From Thermoflexales bacterium (GTDB lineage: Bacteria; Chloroflexota; Anaerolineae; J036; Brachytrichaceae), in the NCBI GenBank assembly GCA_019694215.1, contig JAIBCK010000025.1:1-37911 (forward strand): a stretch of 37,911 nucleotides of DNA, written 5' to 3'. This document shows positions 26,315 through 36,249 of this stretch, piece after piece (position 1 is the first letter of the stretch; every line of letters begins with the position of its first letter). A program made the position numbers and the translations under genes. The notes under the pieces are model-generated. The model worked only from the letters and a program-made list of their open reading frames with translations. It had not been told where the DNA came from and ran no database searches.

Positions 26315-26785
26315 ATGATGAAGAAACTCTGGTCCCTCCCCCTCATGGCCGCGCTCGCGCTGGCCCTCACCGGATGCCCCGCGCCGGCGCCCGCCGCCGC
26401 GCCGGCCGGCCAGATCGTGGTTGACGGTGCGTGGGCGCGCGCGGCCACCGCAGGCATGAACAGTGCCGCCTACATGGTGATCAGGAATGGTGGCGCCGAG
26501 GACACCCTCGTCAGCGCACAGGTCGAGGGCGCGATGCCCGAGATTCATGAGACCGTGCAGGCCGCCGGCGGCATGATGCAGATGCAGCCCCTGGCCAACG
26601 GGCTCAAGGTGCCGGCCAACGGCTCCGTCTCGCTGCAGCCGGGCGGCTATCACATCATGCTGATGGGCCTCAAGCAGGACCTCAAGCTCGGCGGCGAACT
26701 CAAGCTCAAGCTGGTGTTCAAGTCGGGCAAGACGATGGACGTCACGGCCAAGATCCAGGAGATGCCGATGAACATGTCGAAGTAG
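26315..26785 (+). CDS. PCuAC copper chaperone lipoprotein
   Basis: PCuAC proteins bind Cu(I) outside the membrane and help load the CuA site of cytochrome c oxidase. The 156-residue product has a lipoprotein signal ending LTGC (C21) and the PCuAC fold, with likely ligands H78 (IHETVQ), M88 or M90 (GGMMQMQPL), H113 and M115 (GGYHIMLMGL), close to the family's H-x10-M-x21-H-x-M pattern. The C-terminus (QEMPMNMSK) is Met-rich and could add copper sites. Start: ATGATG, so 26315 or 26318. It is monocistronic, with a TAGAAT promoter and a strong terminator. No Sco or oxidase gene is nearby, but the DsbB-cytochrome c gene shares an extracellular redox theme. Confidence 0.92.
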   Translation: MMKKLWSLPLMAALALALTGCPAPAPAAAPAGQIVVDGAWARAATAGMNSAAYMVIRNGGAEDTLVSAQVEGAMPEIHETVQAAGGMMQMQPLANGLKVPANGSVSLQPGGYHIMLMGLKQDLKLGGELKLKLVFKSGKTMDVTAKIQEMPMNMSK

Positions 26786-28182: not shown

Positions 28183-29667
28183 TCAACGCACCCAGCGGAA
28201 GGTGGTGGTGTCGAAGCGGAAGCGTTGATTGGCGCTGTCACGGAGCTCGAGGACGGCCCCGCGCGCGGTGACGATGCGCAGGCTGCCCTTTGCGCCGGTG
28301 GGCGTGTAGTAACGCGCCAGCGCGCCGTCCGCGTCGCGCTGCCAGACACCCAGGCCGTCATCGCGGCGGAAGACGACCAGCGCCGGCGTCGACGCGCCGC
28401 CCTCGTTGCGCCGCGCCCCGGCATGCACGATCAAACGGATGGCGCCCACCCGCCGCTGCCAGGCGTTGACACCGATGAACTGCGAGGCCGGGAGTGGCGC
28501 CGTCACCGAGGCAACGAGATAGCCCCAGCCCAGCGCGCGACCCGTCGGGCGCGTGAAAGAGGTGATGCGCCGCGCATTCGCCAGCGCGCTGCTGTTCCAG
28601 GCCTCCCACGAGATGTCGGTCGGCGGGCCAAAGGTCTGCGCGACGGTGGGCGCGCTGGCCAGGGCGTCGCGGAGCTGCGTCCATCCCGCCTCCGATGGAT
28701 TGTTGGTATGGATGGCCTCGCACTCGGCGTCATTGCCGCGCTCGTGGCAGGCCTGCCACTGCGTCATCACCCCGATGAAGCGCAGGTCGGCGTTGGCCCA
28801 GGTCTTGACGGCCAGCGCGACGGTCTTCCACTGGCGGGCATTGGTGCCGCTGGTCAGGTAGATCTCCGGAAGCGGTTTCGTCAGCGGATGCCCGCCCGAG
28901 ACATACCAGAGATCGTTGAGCGTCCAGAAGCCGCCAATCTGGGTGTTCAGCGGCGGCGCGCCGGAGGTCGGGCAGCCATCGCACGACCCGAAATTGATCA
29001 GCGGGCGCCCCGTCCCCGAGGCATAGCCATCCACCCAGCCCCGCGTCTGGCCGGCGCTGCCAAAGCCCGGCTCGGCGTCGATCGCCCCCATGACCGTGAC
29101 GCGGCTGGCATAGCTGGAGGCCGCGACAGCACTGGCGATGCGCTGGGTCATCTGGCCCCAGGCCAGGCCGGATGCGAAGTGCACATCGGTGCCGTAGTTG
29201 TTGACGCCCAGCCCGATTGTGACTGGGATCGTGGGTGGCGCACAGGTGGCGTAGCCCGTGATGAAGCTGCGGGCGGCGAGCTCAACCTGCGCCAGCGGAG
29301 CCACGTCAAACGCAAAGTAATACACCCCCTGGACGTCAGCGGTGTAGGTGTAGGGTTGGCCAAAGTCGAGGATGATCGTCCCGCGCCGCTGCTGCTGGCC
29401 CGCCGCGCAGCCCCAGGCCTGCAGGCGGCTGGGGATGAGTGAATCGACATAGCGCGAAGTCGTGGAGACGGGGGCGGTCGCGTCGCCCCCCGGAAGGCGC
29501 GGGAAGTAGTACGTGTAGGGCGCGGTCGCGGCCAGGGCCGGCTCGGCCTGAAGCGACGCCGGGCGCGGCGGCGACGTCGTCGCCAGCACCGGGCGCAGCA
29601 GGCCCAGCAGCCCCGCCAACGCGAGCAGCGCGACCCCGATCGGGACGAACACGGACAGACGCTTCAT
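28183..29667 (-). CDS. Secreted or membrane-anchored protein of unknown function
   Basis: The 494-residue protein has an N-terminal signal sequence or anchor (residues 1-30, VPIGVALLALAGLLGLLRPV). The mature part has several Cys pairs (for example GSCDGCP) and segments VTIGLGVNNYGTD, VTVMGAIDAEPGFG and FIGVMTQWQACHERG that alternate strands and helices like a TIM barrel. A peptidoglycan- or glycan-active enzyme is possible, but no family was recognised with confidence. The last 120 residues (LVVFRRDDGLGVWQRD, LRIVTARGAVLELRD) look like a separate beta domain. Its ATG overlaps the hemW stop by 1 bp (TGATG). A longer frame opening at 29994 lies inside hemW and was rejected. Confidence 0.7.
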   Translation of the reverse strand: MKRLSVFVPIGVALLALAGLLGLLRPVLATTSPPRPASLQAEPALAATAPYTYYFPRLPGGDATAPVSTTSRYVDSLIPSRLQAWGCAAGQQQRRGTIILDFGQPYTYTADVQGVYYFAFDVAPLAQVELAARSFITGYATCAPPTIPVTIGLGVNNYGTDVHFASGLAWGQMTQRIASAVAASSYASRVTVMGAIDAEPGFGSAGQTRGWVDGYASGTGRPLINFGSCDGCPTSGAPPLNTQIGGFWTLNDLWYVSGGHPLTKPLPEIYLTSGTNARQWKTVALAVKTWANADLRFIGVMTQWQACHERGNDAECEAIHTNNPSEAGWTQLRDALASAPTVAQTFGPPTDISWEAWNSSALANARRITSFTRPTGRALGWGYLVASVTAPLPASQFIGVNAWQRRVGAIRLIVHAGARRNEGGASTPALVVFRRDDGLGVWQRDADGALARYYTPTGAKGSLRIVTARGAVLELRDSANQRFRFDTTTFRWVR

Positions 29668-30815
29668 CACACCAGCAGGCGGAAGACGCGGTTGCTCAGG
29701 AAGCGGCCGCGCTCGGTCAGCCGCGCCCCAACCGCGTCGACAGTCAGCAGGCCCTCGCCGACCGCCTGATCGAGCGCTGCCTGGAAGAAGGTTGTCATCG
29801 GCGCGCCATAGCGCGCTTCGAAGCGCGCATGCGTGATGCCTTCCTCGAGCAGGCGCAGCCCGAGCATCATCGTCTCGCCGCGCGACGTGGCGGCGTCGAT
29901 GTCCTCGTGGGCGAGTTCGATGCCGCCTGCGCGGATCGCCTCCGGCCCGGCCGCCGCGCGCGCGATGTAGTCGGCCGGGCGGCGGGCGTTCCACCAGCGC
30001 CGCTGGATCGAGCTCGAGTGTGCCCCTGCCCCCAGCCCGAAGTATGGCTCATTTCGCCAGTAGATCAAGTTATGCGCGCAGGCCCGGCCCGGGCGCGCCC
30101 AGTTTGAGATCTCGTAGTGCGCATAACCGGCGTCGCCCAGCACCTGCTCGGCGTGTTCATACATGTCGGCGGCCGCATCCGGATCGGGCAGCGGCAGCTC
30201 CCCGCGCCGGGTGCGCTCATGCAGCGGCGTGCCGGTCTCGATGCTGAGCGCGTAAAGCGAGATGTGCTCGGGGGCCAGCGCCAGCGCGGCCCGCACCGTG
30301 CGTTGCCAGCTCGCGAGCGGCTGGTGCGGCAGGCCGTAGATCAGGTCGATGTTGACATTGTCGAAGCCCGCCGCGCGCACGGTCGCGACGGCCTCGCCCA
30401 CCTCGCGCCAGCCGTGCTCGCGCCCCAGCAGCGCCAGCTCACCGGGGTCGGCGCTTTGCGCGCCAAAGCTCAGGCGGTTGATGCCCAGGGCGCGCATCTC
30501 GCGCAGCGAGGCCAGCGTCACCGTGCCAGGGTTGGCTTCGAGCGTGATTTCGGCGTCATCCGGCAAGGCGAATGCGGACCGGCACGCCTCGACCAGACGC
30601 GCCAGCTGCTCGCCGCTCATCAGCGAGGGCGTGCCGCCGCCGAAGAAGACGGTGTGGGCGACCGGGCGGACCTCGCCGGCGCGGGCGCGGATCTCCGCGG
30701 CCAGCGCCTCGGCATAGGGCTCGCGCAGGCCATCCTGATCGACGTAGGTGTTGAAGTCGCAGTACGAGCAGCGATGCCGGCAGAACGGGATATGCAGGTA
30801 GAGACCGGTGGCCAT
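29667..30815 (-). CDS. hemW: HemW, radical-SAM heme chaperone
   Basis: The 382-residue protein has the radical-SAM motif CRHRCSYCDF (C12, C16, C19). The absence of a fourth Cys after the triad and the N-terminus starting directly at LYLHIPFC fit HemW, which carries heme to target proteins, rather than the oxygen-independent coproporphyrinogen oxidase HemN. Other family segments are FFGGGTPSLM, INRLSFGAQS, NIDLIYGLPHQ, HISLYALSIETGTPL and the C-terminal HemN_C domain (about 310-382). A heme chaperone agrees with the cytochrome c fusion at 33136-34083. The start is 5 nt after the stop of the TPP-enzyme gene, and its stop overlaps the next start. Confidence 0.93.
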   Translation of the reverse strand: MATGLYLHIPFCRHRCSYCDFNTYVDQDGLREPYAEALAAEIRARAGEVRPVAHTVFFGGGTPSLMSGEQLARLVEACRSAFALPDDAEITLEANPGTVTLASLREMRALGINRLSFGAQSADPGELALLGREHGWREVGEAVATVRAAGFDNVNIDLIYGLPHQPLASWQRTVRAALALAPEHISLYALSIETGTPLHERTRRGELPLPDPDAAADMYEHAEQVLGDAGYAHYEISNWARPGRACAHNLIYWRNEPYFGLGAGAHSSSIQRRWWNARRPADYIARAAAGPEAIRAGGIELAHEDIDAATSRGETMMLGLRLLEEGITHARFEARYGAPMTTFFQAALDQAVGEGLLTVDAVGARLTERGRFLSNRVFRLLV

Positions 30816-33135: not shown

Positions 33136-34083
33136 ATGGACCGCTTTTTCACACGCATGGGTCGCGCGGCGCCCTATGCCGGCCTTTTGGTGGCCGCCAC
33201 GGCAACAATCGGCAGCCTCTTCATGAGCCAGGTGCTGGGCTGGCTGCCCTGCGAGATGTGCTGGTATCAGCGCATTGCGATGTATCCGATCCTGCTGCTG
33301 CTGCTGATCGGGATCATCACCGCCGACAGTCGGGTGTATCGCTATGTCCTGCCGCTGGCCGTGATCGGCGGCTTCGTCTCGACGTATCACATCCTGTATC
33401 AGAAGACCGATCTCTTCCCGGCCTCGCCGTGCGAGCTGAACTCGGGCATCTCGTGCAAGGGCGACTATCTCAATGCCTTCAACGGGATGATCACCATCCC
33501 CACCCTCGCGCTGATTGCCTTCGGCCTGATCGTGGTCTCCGCCGTGATTGCCCGGATGGCCACTGACCCGATGCTGATCGACGACGAAACAGACGACGGC
33601 GACGAAACGGCGGATGCGAAGGGGGTGCCCGCCCCCGTCGCGCGCCCTTCGGCGGGGCTGCGCGTGGCCGGCGCGCTGCTGGCCATTGCCCTCGCCTTTG
33701 GATTGGTTTACACCGTTGGAGGATCGCTGCGCGCGGCGCAGGCCCCAAAGACCCCGACGCCGCTGGGCACCCCCTCAGGGTCGCCGTTTGCGACGCCGGT
33801 GTCGAGCGCCGCCAATGGTGCGCGCCTGTTCTCGGAGTACTGCACGATGTGCCACGGCGCGTCGGGGGATGGCATCACCAACCTCGCCCCGACGCTGGCC
33901 GGATCGACGCTGGTCAAGACCGGGAGCGAGGACGACCTGCTGCGCATGATCCGCAAGGGCCGCCTCCCCACCGACGCGGACAACAAGAGTGGCCTGCTCA
34001 TGCCGCAGAGCGGCGGGATGGCGGCGTATGGCGATGACGACCTGCGCTCGGTCATCCGCTACCTCAAGACCATCATCCGCTGA
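33136..34083 (+). CDS. DsbB/BdbC-like thiol oxidase fused to a cytochrome c domain
   Basis: One 315-residue frame joins two redox modules. Residues 1-141 are a DsbB/BdbC-type four-helix membrane protein with its two Cys pairs, C39/C42 (GWLPCEMCWYQR) and C99/C107 (SPCELNSGISC), which oxidise a DsbA-type partner and pass electrons to quinone. An acidic linker (148-160) leads to a fifth helix (about 174-196), a Thr/Pro linker, and a class I cytochrome c (225-315) with CTMCH (C236, C239, H240) and probable axial M289 (LLMPQSGG). Topology places both Cys pairs and the heme outside the membrane. Direct electron delivery to cytochrome c is an inference. PlsC starts 4 nt after the stop. Confidence 0.92.
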   Translation: MDRFFTRMGRAAPYAGLLVAATATIGSLFMSQVLGWLPCEMCWYQRIAMYPILLLLLIGIITADSRVYRYVLPLAVIGGFVSTYHILYQKTDLFPASPCELNSGISCKGDYLNAFNGMITIPTLALIAFGLIVVSAVIARMATDPMLIDDETDDGDETADAKGVPAPVARPSAGLRVAGALLAIALAFGLVYTVGGSLRAAQAPKTPTPLGTPSGSPFATPVSSAANGARLFSEYCTMCHGASGDGITNLAPTLAGSTLVKTGSEDDLLRMIRKGRLPTDADNKSGLLMPQSGGMAAYGDDDLRSVIRYLKTIIR

Positions 34084-34087
34084 GGCC

Positions 34088-34783
34088 ATGACCGCGCCGA
34101 CCCCGACGACGCCCCCAAAATCGGTGTACTCCCGCCGTTGGACGTGGAACGGCAGCACGCCCCTGCGCGGGCTGTGGAATGCGCTGCTGCGGCTGGTCAT
34201 CCGCGCCTTCACCCGCTTCGAGATCCGCGGCCTCGAACACGTGCCGGCCGACGGCGGGTTCATCGTGATGATCAACCACATCCACGCCTTCGACCCATTT
34301 GTGGTCCTGCCGTGGTTGCCAAAGGGCGTCACCCCGATGGCCAAGGTCGAGGCCTTCGAGAATCTGCTGCTGCGCCCGCTCGTCATCACCTACGGGGCCA
34401 TCCCCGTGCACCGCGGCGACGTCGACACCCAGGCCATTCGGATGGCCACCGACGAGCTCAAGGCGGGCCGCGCCATCCTGATCGCCCCGGAGGGCACGCG
34501 CAGCAAGACCGGCGCGCTCATCCCGGCACAGGAGGGCATGGCCTACATCGCCGCGCGCGCCAATGCCTGGGTGCTGCCGGTCGCCATCGTCGGCACGCCC
34601 GGCATGCTGGGCTCGCTGGCGCACCTGAAGCGCGGCCGTCTAACGCTCACGCTTGGTGAGCCCTTCCGGCTGTCCGCCGAGGGCCGCCGCCCCTCCCGCG
34701 AGGCGCTGCAGCAATGGACCGACGACGCGATGCGGCGCATGGCCGCGCTGCTGCCGCCCGAGATGCGCGGCCCCTACGCATGA
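34088..34783 (+). CDS. plsC: 1-acyl-sn-glycerol-3-phosphate acyltransferase-like PlsC
   Basis: PlsC acylates lysophosphatidic acid to phosphatidic acid in phospholipid synthesis. The 231-residue protein has the acyltransferase motif I NHIHAFD (H64-x4-D69), motif II at about 104-110 (AIPVHRG), motif III APEGTRSKTG (E135, R138) and motif IV VLPVAIVGTPG. The N-terminal helix (about 28-42) should bind the membrane. The start at 34088 is 4 nt after the DsbB-cytochrome c stop; a longer frame from 33989 lies in that gene. The stop overlaps the next start by 4 bp. The exact acyl acceptor is not proven, as other lyso-lipid acyltransferases share these motifs. Confidence 0.9.
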   Translation: MTAPTPTTPPKSVYSRRWTWNGSTPLRGLWNALLRLVIRAFTRFEIRGLEHVPADGGFIVMINHIHAFDPFVVLPWLPKGVTPMAKVEAFENLLLRPLVITYGAIPVHRGDVDTQAIRMATDELKAGRAILIAPEGTRSKTGALIPAQEGMAYIAARANAWVLPVAIVGTPGMLGSLAHLKRGRLTLTLGEPFRLSAEGRRPSREALQQWTDDAMRRMAALLPPEMRGPYA

Positions 34784-36249
34784 TTGCCGAGCCGGGTCCG
34801 GCCCTGCCCGCCAGCCGCCCCGCCACCGCGCCCGGGCGGGTCAAGGCCATCGAGCCCGGCAGCGTCGCCGAGGCGGCCGGGCTGCAACCCGGTGACGAGG
34901 TCGTCGCGATCAATGGACACGGCCTGCGCGATGTCATCGACGCGCAGTTCTACGGCGCCGAGGCCGAGGTGGTCTTTGAGCTGATGCGGGCGGGCGCACC
35001 GCTGCAGAGGCGGGCCGCCCGCGCGGCGGGCCAGGCGCTGGGGATCGAGTTTGAACATCCTACGTTTGACATCGACATCCGCCGCTGCGTGAACCTGTGC
35101 CCGTTCTGCTTCGTGCTGCAGAACGCCCCGCGCATGCGGCGCACGCTGTATGTCAAGGACGACGACTACCGCTACTCATTTCTGTTCGGCCACTTCGTCA
35201 CGCTGACCAACCTGACGCAGGACGACTGGGACCGCCTCGCGGAGCAGCGCCTCAGCCCGCTGTATTTCTCCGTCCATGCCACCGACCCCGAGGTGCGCCG
35301 ACGCTGTCTGCGCAACCCGCGCGCCGCCGACCCACTCGCCCAGCTGCGCTGGCTTGGCGAACATGGCATCGCCGCGCACACCCAGCTCGTCGTGACCCCG
35401 GGGTTGAACGACGGCGAGGTGCTGGCGCGCAGCGTGCGCGAGCTGGCCGAACTGCACCCGCATGTCTTGTCCGTCAGCGTTGTGCCAGTCGGGCTGACGC
35501 GCCACCACCGCTACGGCCACCGCCCCAACAACACCGCGGAGTGTCGGGCCGTGCTCGCCGCGGTGGCCGACTGGCAGCGCGAGTTTCGCGAGCGCCTGGG
35601 CTTTGGTTTCGTGTATGCCACCGACGAGTGGTATCTCGTCGCCGGGGAGACCTTGCCGCGCAAACGCGACTACGACGGCATGGCCCTGCAGGAGAACGGG
35701 CTCGGCCTGACGCGCGACTTCCTCAACGAGTTCGCCCGCCTGCAGCGCCGCGAGCTGGGGGACTTGACCCTCGCGCCCGGCGGCCCGGACGGCGCGATCC
35801 TGGCGACGGGGGCGCTGTTCGCGCCCACCCTGCGCCGTGCTGCGGCGGCCTTCTCCCGCCGAACCGGCATCCCACTGCCAACGCTCGGCATCCGCAACGA
35901 GCGCCTTGGGGACACGATCACGGTCGCGGGGCTTTTGCCGGGACAGGACATCCTCGATCAGGTGCGCGCGGCGCGCGAAGGCGCCGACCCTGGCGTGGCC
36001 GCGCTCAAACGTCCGATCCTCATCCTTCCACGGGTGACCTTCGACCATCCCGATGGCGTGGCGCTGGACGATGTCACCCCGGCGCAGATTGCCACGGCGT
36101 TGGACATGCCAGTGGCGCTGGCCGATTGGATGGGCGACGTCGTCGACGCGCTGCACGGGCACAACGCGCTGATCTTCCGACCGGGACAGGCAGCAGGAGA
36201 CCAACCCATCGTCCGCGAGGGCGGCTGGGCGGTCGAGAAATACCTGTAG
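34780..36249 (+). CDS. PDZ / radical-SAM / DUF512 protein
   Basis: The 489-residue protein has an N-terminal PDZ-like domain (about 18-80, VKAIEPGSVAEAAGLQPGDEV), a radical-SAM-type cluster motif CVNLCPFC (C103, C107, C110), the conserved LYVKDDDYRYSFLFGHF (124-140) and TLTNL segments, and a C-terminal DUF512 domain (about 285-489). This matches a widespread family of putative Fe-S oxidoreductases found in cyanobacteria, Firmicutes and Chloroflexota whose reaction is unknown. The stretch after the cluster reads FVLQNAP where relatives usually have FVDQLP. The start at 34780 overlaps plsC by 4 bp (ATGA), so the two are made together. It ends 18 nt from the convergent rpoD stop. Confidence 0.9.
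   Translation: MIAEPGPALPASRPATAPGRVKAIEPGSVAEAAGLQPGDEVVAINGHGLRDVIDAQFYGAEAEVVFELMRAGAPLQRRAARAAGQALGIEFEHPTFDIDIRRCVNLCPFCFVLQNAPRMRRTLYVKDDDYRYSFLFGHFVTLTNLTQDDWDRLAEQRLSPLYFSVHATDPEVRRRCLRNPRAADPLAQLRWLGEHGIAAHTQLVVTPGLNDGEVLARSVRELAELHPHVLSVSVVPVGLTRHHRYGHRPNNTAECRAVLAAVADWQREFRERLGFGFVYATDEWYLVAGETLPRKRDYDGMALQENGLGLTRDFLNEFARLQRRELGDLTLAPGGPDGAILATGALFAPTLRRAAAAFSRRTGIPLPTLGIRNERLGDTITVAGLLPGQDILDQVRAAREGADPGVAALKRPILILPRVTFDHPDGVALDDVTPAQIATALDMPVALADWMGDVVDALHGHNALIFRPGQAAGDQPIVREGGWAVEKYL

Follow-up and report, generated by a model that had tools for sequence, protein, structure and literature searches.

The gene analysed here very probably encodes a DsbB enzyme whose functional heme c domain lies on the outer side of the membrane, a thiol oxidase and a class I cytochrome c being joined in a single polypeptide. 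It lies in a window of 37,911 nucleotides, the whole stretch of Thermoflexales bacterium DNA that was analysed, and its parts are listed in Table 1. The DsbB identity, the heme site and the placement of the heme domain on the outer side are all well supported, and the comparison with relatives suggests that in these bacteria the making of disulfides is wired to the respiratory chain through a cytochrome of its own.

Table 1. Parts of the DsbB-cytochrome c fusion gene and their positions in the window.
Feature	Position	Strand	Basis or remark
DsbB-cytochrome c fusion gene	33136..34083	+	ATG start, one uninterrupted frame, 315 codons plus stop, 315 aa
DsbB domain, residues 11-143, four TM helices	33166..33564	+	Pfam DsbB; AlphaFold2 model
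Cys39-x-x-Cys42, first redox pair, outer end of TM2	33250..33261	+	Invariant in 29 fused proteins
Arg46, CXXC+4 position (E. coli DsbB Arg48)	33271..33273	+	Invariant in 29 fused proteins
Cys99 and Cys107, second redox pair, second outer loop	33430..33456	+	Invariant in the fused-protein alignments
Variable inner loop TM4-TM5, residues 144-172	33565..33651	+	Comparison of fused proteins
Fifth TM helix, residues 173-196	33652..33723	+	Helix 173-202 in the model; mean GRAVY 1.86 (29 proteins)
Linker, Pro/Ala/Thr-rich, residues 197-223	33724..33804	+	16-37 aa in relatives
Class I cytochrome c domain, residues 224-315	33805..34080	+	Pfam Cytochrom_C; model and Foldseek matches
CTMCH heme attachment site, residues 236-240	33841..33855	+	C236, C239 and H240 invariant
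Met289, likely distal heme ligand, conserved M-P motif	34000..34002	+	Invariant in 29 fused class I domains and in the alignment with free relatives

An earlier note on this DNA had proposed that both Cys pairs of DsbB, a complete heme attachment motif and a candidate axial Met occur in one chain, and all of them were recovered (C39/C42, C99/C107, CTMCH at 236-240 and Met289). Pfam DsbB (PF02600) matches residues 11-100 with 48 bits against a gathering cut-off of 22.1, and Cytochrom_C (PF00034) matches residues 225-312 with 46.2 bits against a cut-off of 21.3. For the first part the nearest NCBIfam model is the BdbC-like PRK03113, which scores 116.1 bits and stays below its cut-off of 124. Judged by these scores the DsbB part appears related to this BdbC-type subfamily, yet it is not filed under it. 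The protein shows the family features of DsbB, namely the PF02600 score, the fold, two Cys pairs (CXXC and CXnC), Arg46 and a DsbA-like partner, together with those of a class I cytochrome c, namely CxxCH, a distal Met, the PF00034 score and, in the model, the cytochrome c fold.

The full-length AlphaFold2 model, for which 21 fused proteins served as input, is of moderate confidence (pLDDT 74 overall, pTM 0.62). Its residues 1-147 have their best structural match in E. coli DsbB 6wvf (Z 12.0, rmsd 3.5, 136 aligned), and E. coli DsbB 2zuq reaches Z 11.5, with unrelated helical bundles trailing closely at Z 10-11. The predicted four-helix bundle taken alone is weak evidence for DsbB, but it agrees with the sequence match. 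The heme domain was modelled separately from 50 sequences with AlphaFold2 (pLDDT 84), and its leading Foldseek matches are cytochromes of the c554/c6/c551 type (probability about 1.00, E-values 0.015 or weaker).

Because the four-helix part of DsbB has both ends inside and a fifth helix is added, the heme domain is predicted to lie outside, on the same side as the four Cys. Among 29 fused proteins TM2, TM3 and TM5 are clearly hydrophobic, and the inner loop between TM2 and TM3 has a mean of 2.7 Lys/Arg per 8 residues. The clear TM5 (about 173-196) and this charge pattern support the earlier proposal that, owing to the fifth helix, heme domain and thiols share one side of the membrane, an assignment that draws on both sequence and model. 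The same two features disfavour a cytoplasmic heme domain.

Searching for the same domain pair across Chloroflexota recovered 42 distinct fused proteins, which come from the window's family, from a Caldilineaceae-like family and from other Anaerolineae, single-contig genomes included. Outside the window's genus, 22 of the 26 sampled members of the family have the same full-length, stop-free fused frame, one of them being a single-contig genome (G021). One genus of this family (g2) has an unfused DsbB in its four genomes. When 396 genomes of the class were surveyed, full-length matches were obtained in 34 that belong to a second family (f117, which its named loci suggest to be Caldilineaceae) and in one from a third (f33).

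Conservation was followed over both parts of the protein. The four DsbB Cys are kept in all fused proteins (42/42) and CxxCH in all but one (41/42). The alignment of 29 proteins leaves the four Cys, Arg46, CxxCH and Met-Pro invariant; in an alignment of 21 proteins the four Cys, the CxxCH frame (C236, C239, H240) and Met289 are likewise invariant. Mean pairwise identity among the 29 proteins is 54% for the DsbB part, 24% for the loop, TM5 and linker, and 43% for the heme part. The dN/dS values in 11 close pairs range from 0.06 to 0.24 for the heme part and from 0 to 0.23 for the DsbB part. Conserved motifs, the identity pattern and low dN/dS therefore indicate that both halves are maintained and that purifying selection acts on both domains.

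The earlier note had named relatives with separate neighbouring genes, combined with a sequencing join, as grounds for giving up the fusion. Family f37 does have such separate neighbours, which would fit an assembly artefact or an accidental joining of adjacent genes, but they represent an alternative arrangement and give no sign of a false join. With 42 distinct fused proteins on many contigs and in many genomes, and purifying selection on both parts, a sequencing join is ruled out and the probability left to an artefact is negligible.

Two fused-type loci deviate from the common pattern. The fused protein of a Litorilinea-like MAG (L036:1041-1949) has CAACR in place of CAACH, while its sister L049 keeps CAACH; this is either a sequencing error or a loss of the axial His. 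Within the Caldilineaceae-like fused group, L093:920-1588 (= L195) encodes a DsbB of 222 aa with a tail that has no heme motif, which reflects either secondary loss or a frameshift.

The general understanding is that DsbB enzymes pass their electrons to the quinone pool. For the fusion protein we propose that a DsbA-like protein outside the membrane would deliver two electrons to Cys99/Cys107, from where, along the path known from E. coli DsbB, they would move to Cys39/Cys42 and on to a quinone bound close to Arg46. Positioned on the same side by the fifth helix and a flexible linker, the cytochrome c domain could take single electrons from the bound quinol or semiquinone, and heme c would pass them on, either to a heme-copper oxidase or to a further cytochrome c. 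Electrons from disulfide formation would then enter the respiratory chain at its high-potential end, either in place of the quinone pool or in addition to it. We give this whole route, from DsbA over the Cys pairs, the quinone and heme c to the oxidase, an even chance of being correct, the transfer from quinone to heme and the oxidase as sink being the steps that we infer. A more specific form is put forward tentatively, as a serious possibility somewhat short of even: electrons would run via the bound quinone to the cytochrome c tethered to the enzyme itself and from there to a heme-copper oxidase, for the most part without entering the quinone pool, and Chloroflexota would have put this wiring together more than once, one branch combining it with a selenocysteine DsbA and SCO1.

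The earlier note had already suggested that the heme takes electrons from the bound quinone and feeds a cytochrome c oxidase branch. Its assignment of the protein as thiol oxidase and cytochrome c in a respiratory setting is supported. The path from quinone over heme to oxidase is plausible and gains comparative support from two cytochrome types being fused, from operon versions, from dsbA, SCO1 and PCuAC as neighbours and from the retained Arg; the electron transfer itself is what we infer from these. Counting against the route are the relative with CxxCR (L036) and the one without a heme tail (L093/L195), as well as the facts that the window gene adjoins neither dsbA nor an oxidase gene and that unlinked DsbB is common in relatives.

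Binding of ubiquinone and menaquinone depends on the residue at position CXXC+4, Arg48 in the E. coli enzyme (PMC11208910; also PMC6752827). Because Arg46 is invariant in the fused proteins, and a quinone-free enzyme is not expected to keep it, the heme most likely acts downstream of the quinone rather than replacing it. Direct transfer from thiol to heme without quinone, or a heme domain without any redox role, is accordingly given very little probability. Nothing specific speaks for either, apart from the heme domain sharing a side with the Cys pairs; the former is contradicted by the invariant Arg required for quinone binding (PMC11208910), and the latter by heme ligands that are conserved and under selection.

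The linkage of DsbB with cytochrome c was found in four forms: the fusion of the window's kind (type A), a second fusion (type B), a cytochrome gene downstream and a cytochrome gene upstream. Type B (L064 and G666 = L185) contains a different, oxidase-type cytochrome c, and the type A heme profile run on L064 did not detect this heme domain. It is nearest to another cytochrome subfamily, which includes that of the second oxidase locus of the window's genome on contig C179 (39-42% identity). In the DsbB tree both type B fusions are nested among unfused relatives by starred branches and therefore represent a separate fusion event, which contradicts a single origin for all fusions. A common origin of the heme domains of type A is compatible with the tree test (p-AU 0.68). 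The DsbB tree, which rests on few columns, scatters the fused rows.

As separate genes, a lipoprotein-like cytochrome c lies directly downstream of dsbB in G200, G417 and G513, and a cytochrome c gene lies immediately upstream of it in G495. In family f37 (L148, L149) dsbB is followed by the lipoprotein cytochrome c gene and then by hemW, an order that is kept; in the window and in L045 a hemW gene likewise lies near the fused gene, on the opposite strand. Since many Anaerolineae and the Chloroflexia loci checked have dsbB without a linked cytochrome, such linkage is not required for DsbB. The Chloroflexia homologues (L046, L048, L050-L054, L056, L061, L070, L071, L076) are about 180-200 aa long, lack a heme domain and end just past a hydrophobic segment that is the fifth in the chain. 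This helix may have preceded the fusion, the short proteins representing its precursor, or it may be what was left after the cytochrome had been lost. A profile search for fusions outside Chloroflexota found none among 398 genomes of the Paenibacillus phylum (E 1e-60, no match whatsoever there), 296 genomes of the phylum of L103 or 291 of that of L105; these sets are samples, and fusions with other heme types could escape the profile.

Among free cytochromes, the closest to the type A heme domain are ordinary lipoproteins anchored in the membrane, which makes it probable that the donor was already a tethered shuttle before the fusion. This favours the main rival to the proposed route, according to which the cytochrome is an independent module that uses DsbB for anchoring or co-localisation and shuttles between alternative complex III or a bc complex and the oxidase, while the electrons of DsbB go to the quinone pool. 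A flexible linker would permit such shuttling. However, DsbB was joined to two different cytochrome c subfamilies, and in other genomes it has a separate cytochrome gene as its neighbour, upstream or downstream. Because the free cytochromes are lipid-anchored already and DsbB became associated with cytochrome c along several separate paths, anchoring alone is hard to credit as the reason for the fusion. We regard this alternative as unlikely, though worth keeping in view, and as less likely than the transfer from quinone to heme.

In the window the respiratory setting that the earlier note had seen is built on a PCuAC chaperone and a HemW gene within 7 kb. Both genes are real: PCuAC is encoded at 26315-26785 (PF04314, 114 bits), 6.4 kb from the fusion gene, and the HemW-like protein (radical SAM and HemN_C) at 29667-30815 on the minus strand, 2.3 kb from it. 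They lie outside any operon with the fusion gene and are not co-transcribed with it, and as support for a respiratory setting they are weak in the window and stronger in the relatives. No conserved respiratory operon was found at the window locus, where neither a dsbA nor an oxidase gene adjoins. The fusion gene is instead followed after 4 bp by an acyltransferase gene and then by a DUF512 radical SAM gene. These acyltransferase (PF01553) and PDZ/radical SAM/DUF512 genes occupy 34088-36249, and the same order is found in three members of the family (L032, L033 and L034). Because the genes are close together and their order is kept in these loci, the three are probably co-transcribed.

At other loci a DsbA-like gene adjoins the fused gene, as in several Caldilineaceae loci, in L037, L039, L064 and L185, and also in marine Anaerolineae. 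L037 has genes for a metal ATPase, PCuAC and an ArsR-type regulator just upstream of the fused gene, SCO1/SenC follows just downstream in L064 and L185, and PCuAC is near the fused gene in L039 and L064. SCO1 and PCuAC function in the assembly of the copper site of cytochrome oxidase, and the setting in L037, L039, L064 and L185 is therefore one of oxidase biogenesis and respiration. These neighbours of SCO1, PCuAC and metal ATPase type would also suit a role in the assembly of respiratory enzymes, in which DsbA and DsbB treat the thiols of CuA-site proteins (SCO1, PCuAC, COX2) or of apocytochromes and the heme senses or couples without carrying the electron flow. In Rhodobacter, loss of DsbA impairs biogenesis of the cbb3 oxidase (PMC5742617). 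However, such neighbours occur at only few fused loci, the Caldilineaceae loci have dsbA without an adjoining oxidase-assembly gene, and the heme domain retains the normal features of an electron carrier, so that a pure assembly role appears improbable. For the route from quinone to heme, the window's genome encodes DsbA-like proteins, a caa3-type oxidase (COX2 with a cytochrome c domain) and a second oxidase; partners thus exist at both of its ends. Nine cytochrome c domain matches were found in this genome.

DsbA-like selenoproteins occur in the selenoprotein literature. Three DsbA-like genes of the present set (L144:1558 in G000:C68, L064:7471 and L185:881) read TGA in frame where the codon for the first Cys of CxxC is expected (U-P-V/F/Y-C) and probably encode selenocysteine DsbA. 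One belongs to the window's own genome and the others lie directly before the two type B fusions. The window's genome encodes a tRNA-Sec (C79:27927-28019, 68.7 bits against a gathering score of 47), and a search for a SECIS-like stem-loop after the TGA codons of these genes gave nothing better than shuffles. In another DsbA-like gene of this genome (G000:C162:20594-21064, L143), a cyclophilin-like peptidyl-prolyl isomerase and a DsbA-like domain (CPAC) appear to be joined in one protein, in one open frame of 633 aa.

Compared with known systems, the fusion protein shares with DsbB/BdbC (PF02600; PRK03113) the four-helix fold, two outer Cys pairs, the CXXC+4 Arg and a DsbA-like partner, and differs in the added TM5, linker and cytochrome c domain. 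Its heme domain has the fold and motif of tethered class I cytochromes, such as the lipoprotein cytochromes of Chloroflexota, CcoP, cyt cy and the tails of caa3 COX2, and its nearest sequence matches in the PDB are CcoP and cytochrome subunits of dehydrogenases. However, these are held by lipid, by a helix of their own or by an oxidase or dehydrogenase subunit, and none by a thiol oxidase.

The nearest known architecture is that of DsbI and the nearest known function that of Erv1/ALR, the fold of which is unrelated to DsbB. In mitochondria Erv1/ALR passes thiol electrons through FAD to cytochrome c, so that, like the fusion protein as proposed, it is a thiol oxidase with a cofactor leading to cytochrome c and oxidase, but FAD takes the place of the quinone and the partner cytochrome is separate instead of fused (PMC5203823). 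In DsbI of Campylobacter and Helicobacter the DsbB-like part likewise has five helices and is followed by a C-terminal domain on the outer side, but this domain is a beta-propeller in place of a cytochrome c, and DsbI has no second Cys pair (PMC4460558); neither trait is found in the fusion protein. VKOR and the VKOR-thioredoxin fusions catalyse the same reaction, and the helical bundle resembles VKOR at lower rank (4nv5); they belong to a different family, in which the partner domain is thioredoxin-like and not a cytochrome (PMC4555120). That paper on the phylogeny of DsbB and VKOR does not mention cytochrome (PMC4555120). In the open-licence full-text literature no earlier report of a DsbB-cytochrome c fusion was found, and absence there is no proof.

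If the proposed route is true, the fused DsbB would be a bacterial equivalent of mitochondrial Erv1, both using cytochrome c as acceptor, which here is built in. Where the quinone is low-potential menaquinone, as is generally the case in Chloroflexota, the cytochrome would exert a stronger pull on disulfide formation. Having both parts in one protein makes the question directly testable, since the colour of the heme would report the oxidation of thiols.
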